Origin: Dyadobacter sp. 676
Lineage (GTDB): Bacteria; Bacteroidota; Bacteroidia; Cytophagales; Spirosomataceae
Assembly: GCF_040448675.1 (NCBI RefSeq)
Contig: NZ_CP159289.1
Location: 4,075,001 to 4,139,000, forward strand
Reading direction: 5' to 3'
Length of the DNA stretch: 64,000 nt
Below, in pieces: positions 3,620 through 10,868 of the stretch. Position numbers and translations under genes: made by a program. The notes under the pieces are model-generated. The model was given only the letters and a program-made list of their open reading frames with translations. It ran no database searches and was not told the origin of the DNA. Within the stretch, counting starts at the first letter, position 1. Each line of letters begins with the position of its first letter.

Positions 3620-4765
3620 ATGAAGAGGCTTTTTTACTTTGGGATTATCGGGATAATCCTTTTTGAGATAGCGAAGGTTTACTTTATTATGCCCATGCCC
3701 GGTAGTCAGCGGATGAACAGCATCGACACCGCCTATTTTCTTCATACCTGGCGCTGGGTGCTGCGGGCCTTTTTCTGGGCGATGATCGTGGTGGGAGGTT
3801 TTTCGGTTTTTTCCGTTAAAACGAAATGGCTTCCTGCCATTTTTCTACTGCTGGCAGGAGGTATTACCTACGCGACGAATTTCGAAATGGCAGCGGATAC
3901 GATGTTTTACCAACCTTCGCAGGTAATTCAGCACAATGCAGCGACCAATAAGGTGGGTATGGACCGTCTGATAATTGGTGTGGAGGCCAATGGCGAAGCG
4001 AAAGCATATCCCATTCAATACATTGGCTACCATCACCAGGTGCGCGATGTGCTCGGCGGGAAGCCTGTTATGGTGACCTATTGCACCGTGTGCCGTACCG
4101 GACGCGTATTCGAGCCGGTGGTCGACGGTAAAACGGATGTTTTCCGGCTTGTAGGAATGGACCATTTCAATGCGATGTTTGAAGACAGCGAAACCGGCAG
4201 CTGGTGGAGGCAGGCTAACGGCGAAGCGATTGCAGGACCGCTGAAAGGCAAAATGCTCCCCGAACTCGCCAGCACGCAAACTTCATTAGGCCAATGGCTG
4301 AAACTGCACCCGAACAGCAAGGTAATGCAGCCCGACCCCGTATACCAGACCCAATACGACTCCATGAGCCGCTACGAGTCGGGCCGTGGAAAATCCGTGC
4401 TCACGCGAACCGATTCGTTGTCATGGAAAGACAAATCGTGGGTAGTAGGCATTCGGGCAGGCGGTGCGGCGAAGGCATTCGATTGGAACCGGCTCAAAAA
4501 GGAGCGCATTATCAACGATCGGGTCGGCAATGTGCCGATAGCATTGCTCCTCGGCGCGGATAACAACAGCTTTTTTGCATTCGAAAAAGGGGACGATGAT
4601 GAAGTATTCACGTTCAGGAACGACACCATTTTTACGAAAAACAGTGCCCACAATCTGCTCGGCAAACGTCTCACGGGTACGGGCAACAACCTGAAACGGA
4701 TCACTGCCTACCAGGAATTCTGGCATAGCTGGCGCACTTTCCACCCCGAAACCGGACGGTATTGA
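3620..4765 (+). CDS. DUF3179 membrane protein
   Basis: The 381-residue protein has three N-terminal hydrophobic segments (about residues 5-23, 46-64 and 69-85), then a soluble domain of the DUF3179 type. The signature is VTYCTVCRTGRVFEP (about residues 152-166), with two Cys spaced as YCxxC. DUF3179 has no settled function that I know of. The Cys pair and its exported position suggest redox or metal handling, but that is inference. The gene begins after a terminator and is followed 56 bases later by the start of a FecA-like TonB receptor, so the two are probably an operon. Most family members lack the long membrane part seen here. Confidence 0.82.
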   Translation: MKRLFYFGIIGIILFEIAKVYFIMPMPGSQRMNSIDTAYFLHTWRWVLRAFFWAMIVVGGFSVFSVKTKWLPAIFLLLAGGITYATNFEMAADTMFYQPSQVIQHNAATNKVGMDRLIIGVEANGEAKAYPIQYIGYHHQVRDVLGGKPVMVTYCTVCRTGRVFEPVVDGKTDVFRLVGMDHFNAMFEDSETGSWWRQANGEAIAGPLKGKMLPELASTQTSLGQWLKLHPNSKVMQPDPVYQTQYDSMSRYESGRGKSVLTRTDSLSWKDKSWVVGIRAGGAAKAFDWNRLKKERIINDRVGNVPIALLLGADNNSFFAFEKGDDDEVFTFRNDTIFTKNSAHNLLGKRLTGTGNNLKRITAYQEFWHSWRTFHPETGRY

Positions 4766-4821
4766 AATTCACGGTCCGTCGCCGTTCCCGGTGCCTTCGC
4801 GGCATCCTATTGCAAATGCTC

Positions 4822-7032
4822 ATGAATAAACTATCTACGACAATCCTCCTGTTGATCCTGCTAAGCCGCCAGACCGTACGGGCGCAGGAAAAGAAAAAAG
4901 ACTACGACAAGGTTTTAGACCTCGACGAAGTTACCGTAGGCGAGCGCAGGAACATGATCCACACCGAACGCCTGCCCGACGTCCATAACACTTACATTAC
5001 GGCTGGCAAAAAAAGCGAAGTAATCCAGATCGACGGTGTGAACGGCAATATTGCAGAAAAAACCGGCAGGCAAATATTTGCCAAAATCCCCGGCGTATTC
5101 GTGTACGATATGGATGGTAGCGGCAACCAGGTTAACATTTCGACGCGCGGCCTTGACCCGCACCGGTCGTGGGAGTACAACATCCGCCAGAACGGCATTA
5201 TCACCAATTCAGACATGTACGGCTACCCGGCCAGCCATTACAGTCCGGCCATGGAATCTGTCCAGCGTGTGGAGTTGATTAGGGGGACCTCCTCGTTGCA
5301 ATACGGGGCGCAGTTCGGGGGGATGATCAATTATGTGACGAAGGCCCCCGATACGACTAAGGCATTTGCGTTCGAAACCGTTAATTCCGCCGGATCGTTC
5401 GGGCTTTTCAGTTCTTACAATGCCATAGGCGGCAAGGTGGGTAAGCTGACTTATTCGGCCTATTATCAGAAGCGGCACTCAGACGGTTACCGGAAGAACG
5501 CAAAATCCGACGCGCAGTCGCAATATGTGAGCCTGATGTATGAATTCAGCTCTGTATTCAGGATCAAAGCGGAGTTGGGACGCTCGGAATATGTATACCA
5601 AATACCGGGGCCGCTTACGGACGCCATGTTCAGGGAAGACCCGCGACAGTCGACCCGTTCGCGCAACTATTTCAATCCGGATATTTATGTGCCGTCCATC
5701 GTGATGGACTGGCAAATAAATCCCGATACCCAGCTGAAACTCACCACTTCCGGCGTATACGGCGCACGGAACAGCGTTATGTTCGACGCATTTGCCAATG
5801 TGCCGGATACGATCAGTCGTATTACCAATGCCTACCGTGCACGGCAGGTCGATATCGATAATTTCAAAAGCTTTACTTCCGAGCTTCGCCTGATGCACCG
5901 GTACGAGTTTCTCGGTTTTCGTAATGTGGTCTCAGGTGGCGTACAATATATGCATAACAAGTTGCGCCGCCGCCAGCTCGGCAAAGGCACCACAGGCAGC
6001 GATTTCGATCTGACCTTGACCGATCCGCAGTTTGGCCGCGATATGTATCTGACCACCGATAACGTTGCTGCATTCATAGAAAACCTTATTTTCATCACTC
6101 CGCAGCTCAGTTTTTCGCCTGGTGTGCGTGTGGAGAAGGGTGGGACGGACATGACCGGCCGGATCACTTACTACGATCCGCAGAATTTGCCCAATACCAT
6201 CAGGCACAGCTTCCCGCTCTTCGGGGTCAGCGCTCAGTACAAGCCTGGCGGGAATAGTCGTGTTTATGCAGGCATCTCGCAAGCCTATCGCCCGGTGGTG
6301 TTTAAGGACATTATCCCGGGGTCCGTTTTGGAAAAAGTTGACAAAAACCTCAAAGACGCGACCGGCTATAACCTCGAAGCGGGTATAAGCGGCAATGTGG
6401 GGAATGTGCTCAAATACGATGTCGGGCTTTTCCAAGTGATGATCAACCACCGGATGGGTACCGTGTCGATGAAAGATGAAAACGGGTTCTCTTATCTGTA
6501 CCGTACCACCACCGGCGACAGCAAAACCCGCGGCGTGGAGGCCTATCTGGAATACTCCGTTTTTCAACATTACAACGGCGCAGAACCTCGGACCGAACTG
6601 TCGTTTTTTACTTCCACTTCCTATTTCGATGCCAAATATGTACGTGGGACCGCCGTCGAGAACAACGAAAACAAAAGTGTCGCCGGCAACCGTGTAGAAG
6701 GTGTTCCAACCTGGATTTCGAGAAACGGCATTCAGTTTCAATACAAAAAACTGTCGGTAACCGCTCAATACAGCTATGTAAGCTCCAATTTCGCGAATCC
6801 GCTGAATACCGTGGCGCCTTCCGCGAATGGTACCATCGGTAAAGTACCGGGCTACGGTTTGCTCGACCTCAATGCCACGCTTTATCTCGGCCGGCATTAC
6901 AAGCTGCGTTTCGGAGTGAACAATGTTACCGACAAGCAGTATTTTACCAAACGCCCGACCATGTATCCGGGCGCCGGTGTGTGGAGTTCGGATGGGCGGA
7001 GCCTGGGAGTTTCTTTCGGTATTAAGATCTGA
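4822..7032 (+). CDS. TonB-dependent receptor, FecA-like
   Basis: The 736-residue protein starts at the ATG at 4822, because this gives a clean signal peptide ending near residue 22 (LLSRQTVRAQ). An in-frame TTG at 4762 would add a basic tail before it. A plug domain follows, with RGLDPHRSWEYNIRQNG and VELIRGTSSLQYGAQFGG, then a long barrel that ends in a typical terminal strand (SLGVSFGIKI). The plug resembles FecA-type ferric siderophore or citrate receptors. There is no N-terminal signalling domain and no FecI/FecR pair next to it. The gene follows the DUF3179 gene closely, so the receptor may supply what that protein acts on. The substrate is unproven. Confidence 0.88.
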   Translation: MNKLSTTILLLILLSRQTVRAQEKKKDYDKVLDLDEVTVGERRNMIHTERLPDVHNTYITAGKKSEVIQIDGVNGNIAEKTGRQIFAKIPGVFVYDMDGSGNQVNISTRGLDPHRSWEYNIRQNGIITNSDMYGYPASHYSPAMESVQRVELIRGTSSLQYGAQFGGMINYVTKAPDTTKAFAFETVNSAGSFGLFSSYNAIGGKVGKLTYSAYYQKRHSDGYRKNAKSDAQSQYVSLMYEFSSVFRIKAELGRSEYVYQIPGPLTDAMFREDPRQSTRSRNYFNPDIYVPSIVMDWQINPDTQLKLTTSGVYGARNSVMFDAFANVPDTISRITNAYRARQVDIDNFKSFTSELRLMHRYEFLGFRNVVSGGVQYMHNKLRRRQLGKGTTGSDFDLTLTDPQFGRDMYLTTDNVAAFIENLIFITPQLSFSPGVRVEKGGTDMTGRITYYDPQNLPNTIRHSFPLFGVSAQYKPGGNSRVYAGISQAYRPVVFKDIIPGSVLEKVDKNLKDATGYNLEAGISGNVGNVLKYDVGLFQVMINHRMGTVSMKDENGFSYLYRTTTGDSKTRGVEAYLEYSVFQHYNGAEPRTELSFFTSTSYFDAKYVRGTAVENNENKSVAGNRVEGVPTWISRNGIQFQYKKLSVTAQYSYVSSNFANPLNTVAPSANGTIGKVPGYGLLDLNATLYLGRHYKLRFGVNNVTDKQYFTKRPTMYPGAGVWSSDGRSLGVSFGIKI

Positions 7033-7078: not shown

Positions 7079-8575
7079 TTACTTGATCAAAAATCTCAGA
7101 TATAGCTGGCCATTGACCCAATTTCTTCTTTTTTCCACATGCGGAGCCAGTGTCGAAACGGGGACAATGATATTTAAGCCGATTTGAAGCCTGCCATTCA
7201 GCCCGAGGTGCGGATGGCAAAGTACGCCTGTCCGTAGCGCCCATTGCTGGGGGTTGAGAAGGCTTCGCATCGCTTCCCGGCCTTTCACCGTGACCAATCC
7301 ACCCTGCATGGCATACCCCGTGGCGGTTATGGTTTCATTTCTGAGCAATGCCCCCGAAAATGTCGTGTAAGAGATACCCGCCGTTGCCGAAAGCCACGAC
7401 GCGGCCTCGAATTGGTATTGGAGCGCAAAACTCATTCCGACCGCTTTGATGAAATTCACGTTATGGTGTGTAACGAAAAAAAGAGAGTCGGACACGCGGG
7501 TGGTATCCGCCCGCTGGGAGACCCTGTCGTTATTGCCGAAATAGGAATACAGCGGCGTGAACGTGAATGTGGCGGCATGCCTGTTCCAATTTTTGGTGAC
7601 AAAAATGCCCGGAACGGCCAGGCGGGCCGGACGTTTGATGCTATCGATGCCGGTGAGCAGGTAGGGGTTGTTGAGTTCTATAAAACTCATACTCCATTCC
7701 GGGCCGAAATGGATGCCATGCAAAAGCGGTCGGCGCGTTTTCGTAGCTGTTGCGGGCTTATTCGGAGCGGGTTGTTTTACCAGCTTGCTCAAATCATGGT
7801 CGTATCCTTTGAAGTGCCCCGGGAGCGATGCCAGATTATGAGGCAATGTTTGGGCGACCGCCGAGCGGATCGTTTTTTCAGGGCTATTCGATGTAATGGC
7901 TTCGGGCGCTGCTTGCGTGTCGTTCAATTTTGACGTTGGGTACCCGGCATTAACCCGTCGGGCGATGGGTATCGTAATGTCACCCGGTTGATTTGAACTT
8001 TCGCCCGCTGAAACCTCGATGTTGTGTACGGGCGCGGTACCGGTTCGGAGTGCGTTCATACGCTTGTAGCGTGTACGGGCCGCAGTAAGTTTCGCATGCC
8101 CGTTGCCCGATTGAGTGAGAGCGCCCCCGGAATGGTCGCTACTTGTTGAGGCAATTCGATTTGTCGTATCCGGTTTTTTTCGGGAAGTAACTTCGGAAGG
8201 CGTATTCGTCGTGTTGGAGTGGCTTGTGTCGGTTGTGACGTCGGGTTTTCCGAAATCTGTTTTAACCGGTGCCGGGCCCGTAGTCTTGGAAGTAATAATC
8301 TGTTTTACGGTTGGCCTATTATTTGGTTCAGTGTTCAAAATAAATATAACAGCTATTGCCGAGGTAGCCACCACCGCGGATACGACCCCGAACATCCCTT
8401 TGAGCTTCGCAACGGATTTCCAGACTTCGGACGGCCATTTCGTTCCATCCGCTCCCTGACCGGCAGCGGCGCCCAGCATATCGATCATGCCTGCCCATGC
8501 GTCGTCAACCGGGATTTCCGGGTCCGGAAGCGGGCCATGGAGAAACTTGTCGATATGTTTGTCCTTGCTTTTCAT
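7079..8575 (-). CDS. Candidate dual-membrane-spanning anti-sigma factor (Dma-like)
   Basis: The 498-residue protein has four visible parts. There is a short cytoplasmic N-terminus (1-60) with a PLPDPEIPVDDAW motif, one transmembrane helix (about 61-80), and a long Ser/Thr/Pro/Lys-rich disordered linker (about 81-280). A 210-residue C-terminal region (about 285-498) of alternating aromatic strands looks like a small outer membrane barrel. The gene overlaps the upstream ECF sigma gene by one base (TGATG). This layout matches the Dma anti-sigma factors reported in Bacteroides thetaiotaomicron, which cross both membranes and hold an ECF sigma factor. A classic FecR-type anti-sigma is excluded by the absent FecR domain. 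The anti-sigma role is inferred from architecture and position. Confidence 0.72.
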   Translation of the reverse strand: MKSKDKHIDKFLHGPLPDPEIPVDDAWAGMIDMLGAAAGQGADGTKWPSEVWKSVAKLKGMFGVVSAVVATSAIAVIFILNTEPNNRPTVKQIITSKTTGPAPVKTDFGKPDVTTDTSHSNTTNTPSEVTSRKKPDTTNRIASTSSDHSGGALTQSGNGHAKLTAARTRYKRMNALRTGTAPVHNIEVSAGESSNQPGDITIPIARRVNAGYPTSKLNDTQAAPEAITSNSPEKTIRSAVAQTLPHNLASLPGHFKGYDHDLSKLVKQPAPNKPATATKTRRPLLHGIHFGPEWSMSFIELNNPYLLTGIDSIKRPARLAVPGIFVTKNWNRHAATFTFTPLYSYFGNNDRVSQRADTTRVSDSLFFVTHHNVNFIKAVGMSFALQYQFEAASWLSATAGISYTTFSGALLRNETITATGYAMQGGLVTVKGREAMRSLLNPQQWALRTGVLCHPHLGLNGRLQIGLNIIVPVSTLAPHVEKRRNWVNGQLYLRFLIK

Positions 8576-9108
8576 CAGAGGAGGTTTTCAAAAATGACTT
8601 TCAATCTGTTCCTGCTCTCGCTTAAATGCCACTTGACGGTGCCTTCGCTGATGGCCAATGAACCGGCTATTTCTTTCACCGAAAAACCATCCATATAATA
8701 CAAGCTGCAAATCCGGCGTGTGGCAATGGGCAGTTGCATCAGGTACACGTGAATATCGGTGCCCGAGAGTTGTTCAAACGGGTTTTCCTGTGATATAAGG
8801 CCCATTTTGTCCTCGATCTCCACGTACTCGAATGCATGGGTTTTCCGGTCGCGCAGCAGCGTGAGTGCCGCGTTGCGAACGGTGGTATACATCCAGTTGA
8901 AAAACTCGCCCTTTGCCGGGTCGTAGCGGTCGATATTTGCGAACACTTTCAGCATGCCATTGTTGATCGCCGTGACGATGTCGTGTTTATCCTCGAAAAA
9001 ATTCCTGCAGAGCGCGAACAGGACAGGATAAAATTGCCGGTACAATTTTTCCTGACTCTGACGCTCCTGACGTTTGCAGCCGGCTAGTGTATGATATAAT
9101 GTGTCCAA
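8575..9108 (-). CDS. ECF-type RNA polymerase sigma factor
   Basis: The 177-residue protein has a sigma region 2 (about 20-90, with DPAKGEFFNWMYTTVRNAAL) and a region 4 helix-turn-helix near the C-terminus (GFSVKEIAGSLAISEGTVKW, about 142-161). Both are typical of extracytoplasmic-function sigma factors. It should direct RNA polymerase to a small regulon, perhaps including its own operon. The next gene overlaps by one base and probably encodes the membrane protein that restrains it. A lipoprotein gene lies just upstream on the same strand. Confidence 0.92.
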   Translation of the reverse strand: MDTLYHTLAGCKRQERQSQEKLYRQFYPVLFALCRNFFEDKHDIVTAINNGMLKVFANIDRYDPAKGEFFNWMYTTVRNAALTLLRDRKTHAFEYVEIEDKMGLISQENPFEQLSGTDIHVYLMQLPIATRRICSLYYMDGFSVKEIAGSLAISEGTVKWHLSESRNRLKVIFENLL

Positions 9109-9202: not shown

Positions 9203-9511
9203 TCAGTGAATAGTTTTGAGACGTTTCAAAGTACTCGTAAGACCAGTTCGGGATCCGGCGCCGAGGGTGTCCAAGAAGGAGCTGTCGGCGATAGTGCTGT
9301 CCCGGACTACTGTGTCCTGATAAACGCTGTCGCTTATGATACTGTCTGTCCCGATAGTGTCCGGTCGAATACTATCCACCTGAGCGCTATCCACACCTGT
9401 CCTTGCCGAGACCGGTGCAGGTGCATTTTCTTCCATTTTTCCCCGTTCGCAGGCGACCAGCTGGATCAGCAGCAACACAACACACAATACCAGCCATTTT
9501 TCTGTTCTCAT
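9203..9511 (-). CDS. Small lipoprotein with nine Asp-Ser/Thr pentads
   Basis: The 102-residue protein starts with a lipoprotein signal (LIQLVAC, lipidated Cys21). A short linker follows, then nine consecutive five-residue units of the form x-D-[S/T]-x-x. Asp occurs at 41, 46, 51, 56, 61, 66, 71, 76 and 81, each followed by Ser or Thr. A short basic tail (LKRLK) ends it. I recognise no family: canonical pentapeptide repeats have Leu or Phe at the centre of A(D/N)LxX, which is absent here. The spacing would suit a regular beta structure or a row of divalent-cation ligands, but that is speculation. It lies upstream of the sigma factor gene on the same strand and may belong to that regulatory unit. 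Confidence 0.7.
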   Translation of the reverse strand: MRTEKWLVLCVVLLLIQLVACERGKMEENAPAPVSARTGVDSAQVDSIRPDTIGTDSIISDSVYQDTVVRDSTIADSSFLDTLGAGSRTGLTSTLKRLKTIH

Positions 9512-9559: not shown

Positions 9560-9695
9560 ATTAAAATAAACTACAATGGATGGCGGGAAGGTTGGGCAGG
9601 TATCGGAAAAAATACTGATTAAAATGTGTATTGTCAGTAAATACCAGTTATTTGAGCGTTTTGGTTTTGAAATGAATAGCCCCAACCATCGCCTC

Positions 9696-10868
9696 ATGAA
9701 ACGAATTGCCTGCATATTGATCCTGCAACTGGCCAGCCTGGCGGTTTTTGCCCAGAACTACGACGAGTCCAAGGTCCCGCATTACACATTGCCTGATGTG
9801 TTGAAGACATCGGCAGGAAAGACGATCCGCAACAAGGAAAAATGGGAGAAACTGAGGAGGCCCGAAGTACTGAAACTTTTCGAAGACAATGTGTATGGGC
9901 AACTGCCAACCGACTACGACAGCATCCGCTACGCGCTATCAGAAGACGACCACCCGGAAATGGACGGAAAGGCGGTGTTGAAACAGGTCGGCATTACCGT
10001 GTTCAGGAAAGGGACACCGGTGCAGATCGATGTGGTGCTCTTTGTGCCGGCGCAGCCAAAGAAGCCCGTACCGGTTTTCCTGCTCATTAATAACCGCGGC
10101 AAGGAGAACACCGATCCTACGCGTGCTACCAGGAGCGAGTTCTGGCCGGCTGAAATGGTGATCGACAGCGGGTTCGCGATTGCGGCATTTCATGTGAGCG
10201 ACCTGGCGCCCGATAATAAGGATACGTATGCGACGGGCCTTTTGCAGAAGCTCTATCCGGAGCAATTGAAAAAAGATAACGGCATGAAGGCCATTGGCGC
10301 CTGGGCATGGGGTGCAAGCCGGGTAATGGATTACTTCGAGACCGATAAGGATATCGATGCGAAAAAAGTCATTGTCGTGGGGCATTCGCGTGGAGGGAAA
10401 ACTTCGTTGTGGGCCGCGGCCCAGGACCAGCGCTTTGCAGCCTGTGTAACCAATTGTTCCGGAAATACCGGTGCGGCGCTCGCGAGGCGGCAGTTCGGCG
10501 AGAGGATCAGCCGTATCAACGCTACTTTTCCCCATTGGTTTAATAACAATTACAAAAAGTATAACGACAGGGAGAATGCATTGCCGGTTGATCAGCACAT
10601 GCTGATCGCGCTCATCGCACCGCGGCCGGTTTATGCCACGAATGCTTCCAAAGACCTTTGGGCGGACCCAAAAGGAACATTCCTGGCCATGAAAGCCGCT
10701 GAACCTGTTTATGCGTTGTACGGTATCAAACCGGAATTGCCCAACGATCAGCCGGGGATCGATGTGCCGGTAATCGGCCCGCACTTCGGTTACCATAACC
10801 GTGAAGGCGAGCACAATATGACGGCCTACGACTGGGCGAATTTTATCCGGTTCGCGAGGAAATTCTGA
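9696..10868 (+). CDS. CE15-like glucuronoyl esterase / alpha-beta hydrolase
   Basis: From the ATG at 9696 the protein has 390 residues and a clean signal peptide (SLAVFAQ, cleaved near residue 20). An ATG at 9672 adds eight residues before it. The nucleophile elbow is GHSRGGK with Ser231, and the likely catalytic His373 sits in REGEHNMTAYDW near the C-terminus. This arrangement is typical of carbohydrate esterase family 15, which cleaves ester bonds between glucuronoxylan and lignin. A related acetyl xylan esterase-type role is possible. It is probably periplasmic. No other polysaccharide-degradation genes are adjacent. The nearby palindrome at 9548 may control it. Confidence 0.8.
   Translation: MKRIACILILQLASLAVFAQNYDESKVPHYTLPDVLKTSAGKTIRNKEKWEKLRRPEVLKLFEDNVYGQLPTDYDSIRYALSEDDHPEMDGKAVLKQVGITVFRKGTPVQIDVVLFVPAQPKKPVPVFLLINNRGKENTDPTRATRSEFWPAEMVIDSGFAIAAFHVSDLAPDNKDTYATGLLQKLYPEQLKKDNGMKAIGAWAWGASRVMDYFETDKDIDAKKVIVVGHSRGGKTSLWAAAQDQRFAACVTNCSGNTGAALARRQFGERISRINATFPHWFNNNYKKYNDRENALPVDQHMLIALIAPRPVYATNASKDLWADPKGTFLAMKAAEPVYALYGIKPELPNDQPGIDVPVIGPHFGYHNREGEHNMTAYDWANFIRFARKF

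Follow-up and report, generated by a model that had tools for sequence, protein, structure and literature searches.

What keeps the sigma factor encoded at positions 8575 to 9108 of this stretch in check, and which genes would it read once it is set free? The gene encodes an extracytoplasmic function (ECF) sigma factor of Dyadobacter sp. 676, a soil bacterium of the Cytophagales. The stretch analysed, hereafter the window, comprises 64,000 nucleotides of contig NZ_CP159289.1 (positions 4,075,001 to 4,139,000 of the forward strand; assembly GCF_040448675.1). The original prediction had coupled this gene to the one downstream, as a candidate anti-sigma factor that crosses both membranes like the Dma proteins of Bacteroides thetaiotaomicron. 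The sigma/partner pair was right, while a lipoprotein gene and a promoter-like block upstream of it had been missed. I consider it probable that the sigma factor is held by an anti-sigma factor spanning both membranes, within a self-regulated lipoprotein-sigma-anti-sigma module. Gene linkage, shared loss, the layout of the partner, its predicted barrel, and a conserved block support this reading. The three genes of the module are ordered lipoprotein, ECF sigma factor, and two-membrane partner on the minus strand, with the following features.

9566..9597, minus strand: promoter-like block, predicted promoter of the module, GCCCAACC-N17-AGTTTAT (consensus ACCCAACC-N17-AGTTTAT), from the alignment of loci and a genus-wide pattern search
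9203..9511, minus strand: lipoprotein gene, 102 amino acids, shortened form, with signal peptide, lipobox LVAC, and D-S-I/D-T-I repeats
8575..9108, minus strand: ECF sigma factor gene, 177 amino acids, TTG start (Sigma70_r2, r4_2, TIGR02937)
7079..8575, minus strand: putative anti-sigma factor, predicted to span both membranes, 498 amino acids
8402..8575, minus strand: partner residues 1-58, predicted cytoplasmic sigma-binding segment with the motif PDPEIPxDDAWAGMxDML (from conservation; binding presumed)
8330..8398, minus strand: partner residues 60-82, predicted inner-membrane helix (hydropathy peak, model)
7724..8329, minus strand: partner residues 83-284, predicted disordered periplasmic linker (model confidence)
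7082..7723, minus strand: partner residues 285-498, predicted outer-membrane beta-barrel domain (AlphaFold2, fold search, strand alternation)

The two open frames proposed earlier were checked in the sequence, and they share a single base, where the stop codon of the sigma gene meets the start codon of the partner gene (TGATG). The sigma protein matches Sigma70_r2 (E 4e-12) and r4_2 (E 1e-9) in Pfam. It also passes the cut-off of TIGR02937, the general sigma70-ECF model, which is the sole NCBIfam model over its cut-off among the 25 matches listed. A search of solved structures with the sigma profile returned ordinary ECF structures, with SigW first. The genome of Dyadobacter sp. 676 has 89 matches to TIGR02985, the Bacteroidetes ECF sigma model, at E up to 0.001, some of which are fragments.

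The layout that had been claimed for the partner, namely a short N-terminus, one helix, a disordered linker some 200 residues long, and a barrel-like C-terminus, agrees with hydropathy, composition, and the AlphaFold2 model. A single strongly hydrophobic segment lies at about residues 60-82. The model places a helix at residues 48-81 with a predicted local distance difference test score (pLDDT) of 43-68 in blocks, and the inner-membrane helix itself has only moderate confidence (blocks of 64-68). The residues P, T, S, N, G, and Q make up 49% of residues 83-285, and pLDDT is below 50 at residues 82-249 and 251-261. The C-terminus is all-beta, its 10-residue blocks having pLDDT of 81-97 from residue 281 onward. 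Residues 285-498 are modelled with high confidence as a membrane-type beta-barrel and not as a soluble domain, and the long strands of this barrel alternate in hydrophobicity. No Pfam or NCBIfam model matched the partner over its cut-off, the barrel match being sub-threshold; when the partner profile was compared with solved structures, the region outside the barrel gave just weak matches to unrelated eukaryotic proteins.

Is this layout conserved? An alignment of the partner with 35 homologues shows conservation in the N-terminus and in the barrel but not in the linker. Thus, the layout is not due to chance. The linker is 173 to 284 residues long and devoid of cysteine in the 36 sequences. 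The N-terminus is the best conserved part of the protein (residues 1-36 have 66% mean identity to the Dyadobacter sp. 676 partner across the 35 homologues), and a helix is predicted with moderate confidence at residues 23-35. W27, M30, and L34 are among its conserved residues.

The linkage of the two genes is nearly complete. The pair was to be sought in related genomes, and a sigma gene was found within 100 bases on the same strand for 37 of the 38 distinct frames matching the partner (E 1e-5). The remaining frame belongs to an interrupted copy, of which it is the downstream part. It should be noted that the list of 37 pairs was built by requiring adjacency, and that the 37/38 count is the unbiased one. 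The 36 other sigma genes are 52-88% identical to that of Dyadobacter sp. 676, and each adjoins a related partner. Of 18 database matches to the partner, the six that carry an organism name are from Dyadobacter. Among 55 loci with a sigma relative in genomes that bear an organism name, 21 have 72-88% identity over 174-177 residues. All 21 belong to Dyadobacter, and in every one of them the barrel protein begins at the end of the sigma gene and the promoter-like block lies within 2.5 kilobases (kb) upstream.

The two genes are also lost together. The partner profile matches 44 of 48 genomes of the genus, including one weak match to another class of protein (G014), which leaves 43. The five other genomes also lack a sigma orthologue, their best matches being 29-32% identical. 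In G053 (locus L099, C20:291000-299000), both the sigma gene and the partner gene are in pieces, while the block and the short start of the lipoprotein persist. The partner frame is interrupted in G023. Strong partner matches occur once per genome. A family search of 222 genomes found strong matches outside the genus only in G187, whose partner frame is interrupted, and G102.

A lipobox scan detected a lipoprotein frame in 34 of the 37 pairs, directly preceding the sigma gene and in the same orientation. As for the three exceptions, a short frame in G187 encodes the C-terminal part of the lipoprotein, the gene is inverted in G007, and it lies elsewhere in G022. The lipoprotein profile matches 45 of the 48 genus genomes, i.e. 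the 43 with a pair or a remnant, G001, and G014 (a weak match to the PKD-like part, not counted). The usual lipoprotein has about 260 residues, with a weak PKD-like region and a C-terminal domain carrying two cysteines invariant in 16 aligned rows. Pfam gave one weak PKD match on five upstream lipoproteins, and a database search returned seven proteins, six of them from Dyadobacter. In Dyadobacter sp. 676 and eight other genomes of the genus, the operon copy matches the first 38-44 model positions alone. Beyond this matched start, the Dyadobacter sp. 676 protein consists of D-S-I/D-T-I repeats and has neither the PKD-like nor the C-terminal region. A similar short repeat lipoprotein precedes a pair of the sigma-barrel type in Chitinophaga silvatica (L256), and the short form may therefore be real and not decayed.

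What would the sigma factor read? Upstream of the lipoprotein start, the block ACCCAACC-N17-AGTTTAT is ungapped and nearly invariant in 33 alignable loci, these being the loci among the 37 pairs whose lipoprotein start was located by script. The first base is changed in Dyadobacter sp. 676. The locus L088 differs at one base in the second element, which also starts differently. The block combines an AACC element with an A/T-rich element at a distance of 17 bases, a shape similar to that of ECF sigma factor promoters. A glucuronyl esterase-like gene (9576-10868, plus strand) diverges from the module, and its listed start falls within the block; the true start is probably further in for this reason.

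The block was searched for in the 48 genus genomes with up to one mismatch, and the pattern read backwards served as the control. In total, 63 matches were found, 43 at pairs and 20 elsewhere, against 50 for the backward pattern. The at-pair matches are on the same strand as the pair except for one on the opposite strand in G007 (42 and one), where each of the two divergent genes has a block. Among the 43 genomes with a pair or a remnant, 42 carry the block on the strand of the pair at a distance of 0.5-1.5 kb upstream, and in 40 of these it matches exactly. Exact matches away from pairs are only two (G043 and G013). The one in G043 precedes a second copy of the lipoprotein gene, and one-mismatch matches in G022 and G001 also precede a lipoprotein gene of the family. 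The unlinked sigma gene of G022 is itself preceded by a copy of the block, which keeps the spacing but has three mismatches. The matches in G043, G022, and G001 were among six off-pair matches that were viewed. Two others, the second exact match of G013 and a one-mismatch match of G060, span the start codon of a PorP-like gene (named by eye) and were taken as chance; for the sixth, in G049, no lipoprotein match was found in its stretch. Since the backward pattern gave 50 matches, the remaining ones are not above chance. In Dyadobacter sp. 676, a search with up to two mismatches showed no further targets (10 matches, its own site included, versus 8 backwards). The simplest reading of the sequences is that the block is the promoter of the sigma factor and that the conserved target is the lipoprotein gene, with the sigma and anti-sigma genes on the same transcript. 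The regulon looks very small, perhaps limited to the module operon in Dyadobacter sp. 676.

How might the module work? Most likely, the system would sense the outer membrane and activate the lipoprotein operon to which it belongs, much as EcfO-Reo controls NigD in Bacteroides fragilis and Phocaeicola vulgatus. Holding, sensing, and release are inferred from the studied cases of the same layout, Reo and Dma. The N-terminus of the partner would bind the sigma factor and hold it at the inner membrane. The barrel may report a disturbance of the outer membrane, which could be an unassembled barrel or a ligand on the barrel. The signal would pass through the linker, perhaps by proteolysis, and free the sigma factor. 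The freed sigma factor would read the promoter-like block and raise the lipoprotein, itself, and its own inhibitor.

Is the partner a relative of the Bacteroidaceae proteins with this layout? Three families were compared as profiles: the Dyadobacter partners (A1), a second family of Cytophagales and other rows (A4), and a Bacteroidaceae family (A3), whose rows have the layout, none being identified as Dma or Reo by name. The A1 and A4 families are linked by the N-terminus and the helix (96.6%, E 6e-10), and A4 and A3 by the barrel (98.6%, E 6e-16). Of six comparisons of sub-alignments, five scored above the reversed control and every one of the 20 permutations, in some cases over a short stretch; the sixth, of the N-termini of A1 and A3, is discussed below. 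By these comparisons, the Dyadobacter partner is a separate sequence family, tied to the Bacteroidaceae proteins of this layout mainly through the intermediate family. The layouts are clearly alike, and common descent is likely, though short of proof.

Several points weigh against the reading proposed here. The direct profile link of A1 and A3 is weak (61%, E 8e-5), and their N-termini alone score no better than permuted or reversed controls. As to the Dma-type assignment of the original prediction, layout, linkage, shared absence, and one shared decay fit a Dma/Reo-type pair, but direct profile similarity is weak. The sigma factor joined to the partner N-terminus was modelled as a single chain from a relative (pTM, the predicted template modelling score, of 0.47; no contact or inter-domain error values), using an alignment of 45 rows, of which 11 were paired, 19 covered sigma only, and 15 the N-terminus only. 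The N-terminal helix had pLDDT of about 73 and then 55 in this fused model, the same as in the isolated protein, and no interface with the sigma factor was predicted, an outcome compatible with binding as well as with its absence. The genome G001 has the lipoprotein without the pair, Chitinophaga hostae (L254) has a homologous lipoprotein and the sigma gene with no adjacent barrel-type protein, and another Chitinophaga (L255) has the sigma gene and a barrel-type partner with no recognised lipoprotein. These exceptions argue against a unit in which the three parts always occur together. The block may also be that of another regulator. In Dyadobacter sp. 676 itself, output may be reduced, because the lipoprotein is without its folded regions and the block has one mismatch.

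Could the barrel protein be something other than an anti-sigma factor? It might be a co-transcribed outer-membrane protein or an activator, with the sigma factor controlled otherwise. The fused model without a predicted interface and the barrel-less Chitinophaga L254 locus fit this possibility, but conservation is highest in the N-terminus despite its presumed place in the cytoplasm, and the gene shares absence and decay with the sigma gene. Moreover, Reo, Dma1, and Dma2, which have the same layout, are inhibitors by genetics (PMC9308784, PMC13114119, PMC13088901). I regard this alternative as unlikely.

Still less probable is a soluble periplasmic barrel or sandwich at the C-terminus, which would turn the partner into a conventional anti-sigma factor with one helix and a sensor in the periplasm. 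The whole partner model gave low TM-scores in Foldseek, and BcnB, PsbO, and a TbpB lobe, which I take to be soluble or lipid-anchored non-membrane barrels, appear at ranks 25, 32, and 45 of the fold-match list. However, the first 24 rows of this list are membrane barrels by title. The Bacteroidaceae partner L160 passes the cut-offs of OMP_b-brl_2 and OMP_b-brl, and OMP_b-brl_2 is found in 111 of the 120 listed relatives of natural sigma-barrel fusions described below. A soluble domain was rejected on the model, the fold search, and the alternation of the strands. A FecI/FecR-type surface signalling pair with the neighbouring TonB-dependent receptor (4762-7032) is suggested by the one-helix membrane partner of an ECF sigma factor and by the adjoining receptor gene, but it is very improbable and was rejected, because, as the original prediction had said of the partner, there is no FecR domain (neither Pfam nor NCBIfam gave a match with E up to 1), and because there is no transducer next door: the receptor has plug and barrel only, with no other Pfam match at E 0.001 and no N-terminal signalling domain, and its gene is convergent and has a similar gene in 5 of 19 compared stretches (6.5-19 kb, of unequal reach), in all 19 of which the sigma gene is found (one as a remnant).

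Is an anti-sigma factor of this layout unusual in the phylum? The sigma factor served as query against 395 genomes sampled from the phylum (E 1e-20), and 29 sigma loci, all outside Dyadobacter sp. 676, were read. Twenty have an adjacent partner of at least 376 residues; 8 of these partners are cut by the locus end and 14 have a clear hydrophobic segment, their barrels not being modelled. In five of the 29 loci, the script found no adjacent partner. In L136, L143, L144, and L145, the sigma gene is followed by a short one-helix partner (212-259 residues), and then comes a second protein with a signal-like start; together, the two may be a split two-membrane anti-sigma factor. From 61 Bacteroidaceae genomes, 30 sigma loci were retrieved: 23 with a partner of 354-475 residues, three with natural fusions of ECF sigma factor, one helix, linker, and barrel-like end (L168, L171, and L173), one with a 70-residue partner, two in which no adjacent partner was found, and one in which the script found no sigma frame. 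A database search with one of the fusions gave 2,566 matches, and all 120 listed carry sigma domains. Dyadobacter sp. 676 has two more pairs of a sigma gene and a long partner (L221 and L222, near 2733778 and 4314747), of other sequence families and with barrels not modelled. In summary, the two-membrane layout is common in Bacteroidota with other sequences. The original prediction saw in this locus an extension of Dma-type signalling to cytophagal bacteria, which is right in layout, but the layout is already common in the phylum, and the 2026 Dma2 paper describes the Dma class as found solely among Bacteroidota (PMC13088901).

As a class, the sensor is known; the novelty lies in the organisation of three genes, in the lipoprotein family, and in the promoter-like block, which makes the regulon testable. 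The literature searches found no such module described for Dyadobacter, and one may have been reported elsewhere. In the part of the literature covered, two-membrane anti-sigma factors have been studied experimentally in gut Bacteroidales alone. As a version from free-living bacteria that has a single sensor, a single predicted promoter, and a single main target, the Dyadobacter module may offer a simple setting for the study of signal and output. It suggests a general rule that two-membrane sensors come with a dedicated lipoprotein. Tentatively, one may go further: the lipoprotein could be a third working part that binds the barrel of the partner, closing a circuit that measures and restores one lipoprotein or its delivery machinery, and two-membrane anti-sigma factors across Bacteroidota might share this design of one sensor and one lipoprotein with unrelated lipoproteins (NigD in Bacteroidaceae). 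If so, the short repeat-only lipoproteins of the Dyadobacter sp. 676 clade and Chitinophaga L256 would be the minimal ligand.

How does the module compare with known systems? In EcfO-Reo, the sigma gene is likewise followed by that of a large anti-sigma factor, for which a course from the cytoplasm to a barrel in the outer membrane is predicted. According to the reports, EcfO targets its own operon and NigD surface lipoproteins, a nigD gene adjoins the pair by consecutive locus tags, and in P. vulgatus the loss of the anti-sigma factor frees EcfO, which raises the NigD lipoproteins and is itself induced after toxin stress (PMC9308784, PMC13114119). The Bacteroidaceae loci L160 and L169 have the same neighbourhood, with a NigD gene next to the pair. 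The Dyadobacter module belongs to another genus and differs in its sequence family and in its lipoprotein family. The first gene of its operon encodes a lipoprotein of its own and lies behind the nearly invariant block, and a search of the Dyadobacter sp. 676 genome for NigD_N found none. Loss of Dma1 or Dma2 in B. thetaiotaomicron has effects that run via Das1 or Das2 (PMC13088901). These proteins affect vesiculation and polysaccharide-use genes, whereas the motif search in Dyadobacter shows lipoprotein genes and the pair only. FecI-FecR likewise joins an ECF sigma factor to a one-helix membrane partner, but the Dyadobacter pair has no FecR domain and no adjoining transducer receptor. Dma3 of B. 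thetaiotaomicron and the three Bacteroidaceae fusions, of which L171 has a Pfam barrel over the cut-off, carry the sigma region, helix, linker, and barrel-like end in one chain. In L168, L171, and L173, region 4 runs straight into the helix with no W-motif segment, so that these chains were of no use for modelling the interface; Dyadobacter has two separate proteins.
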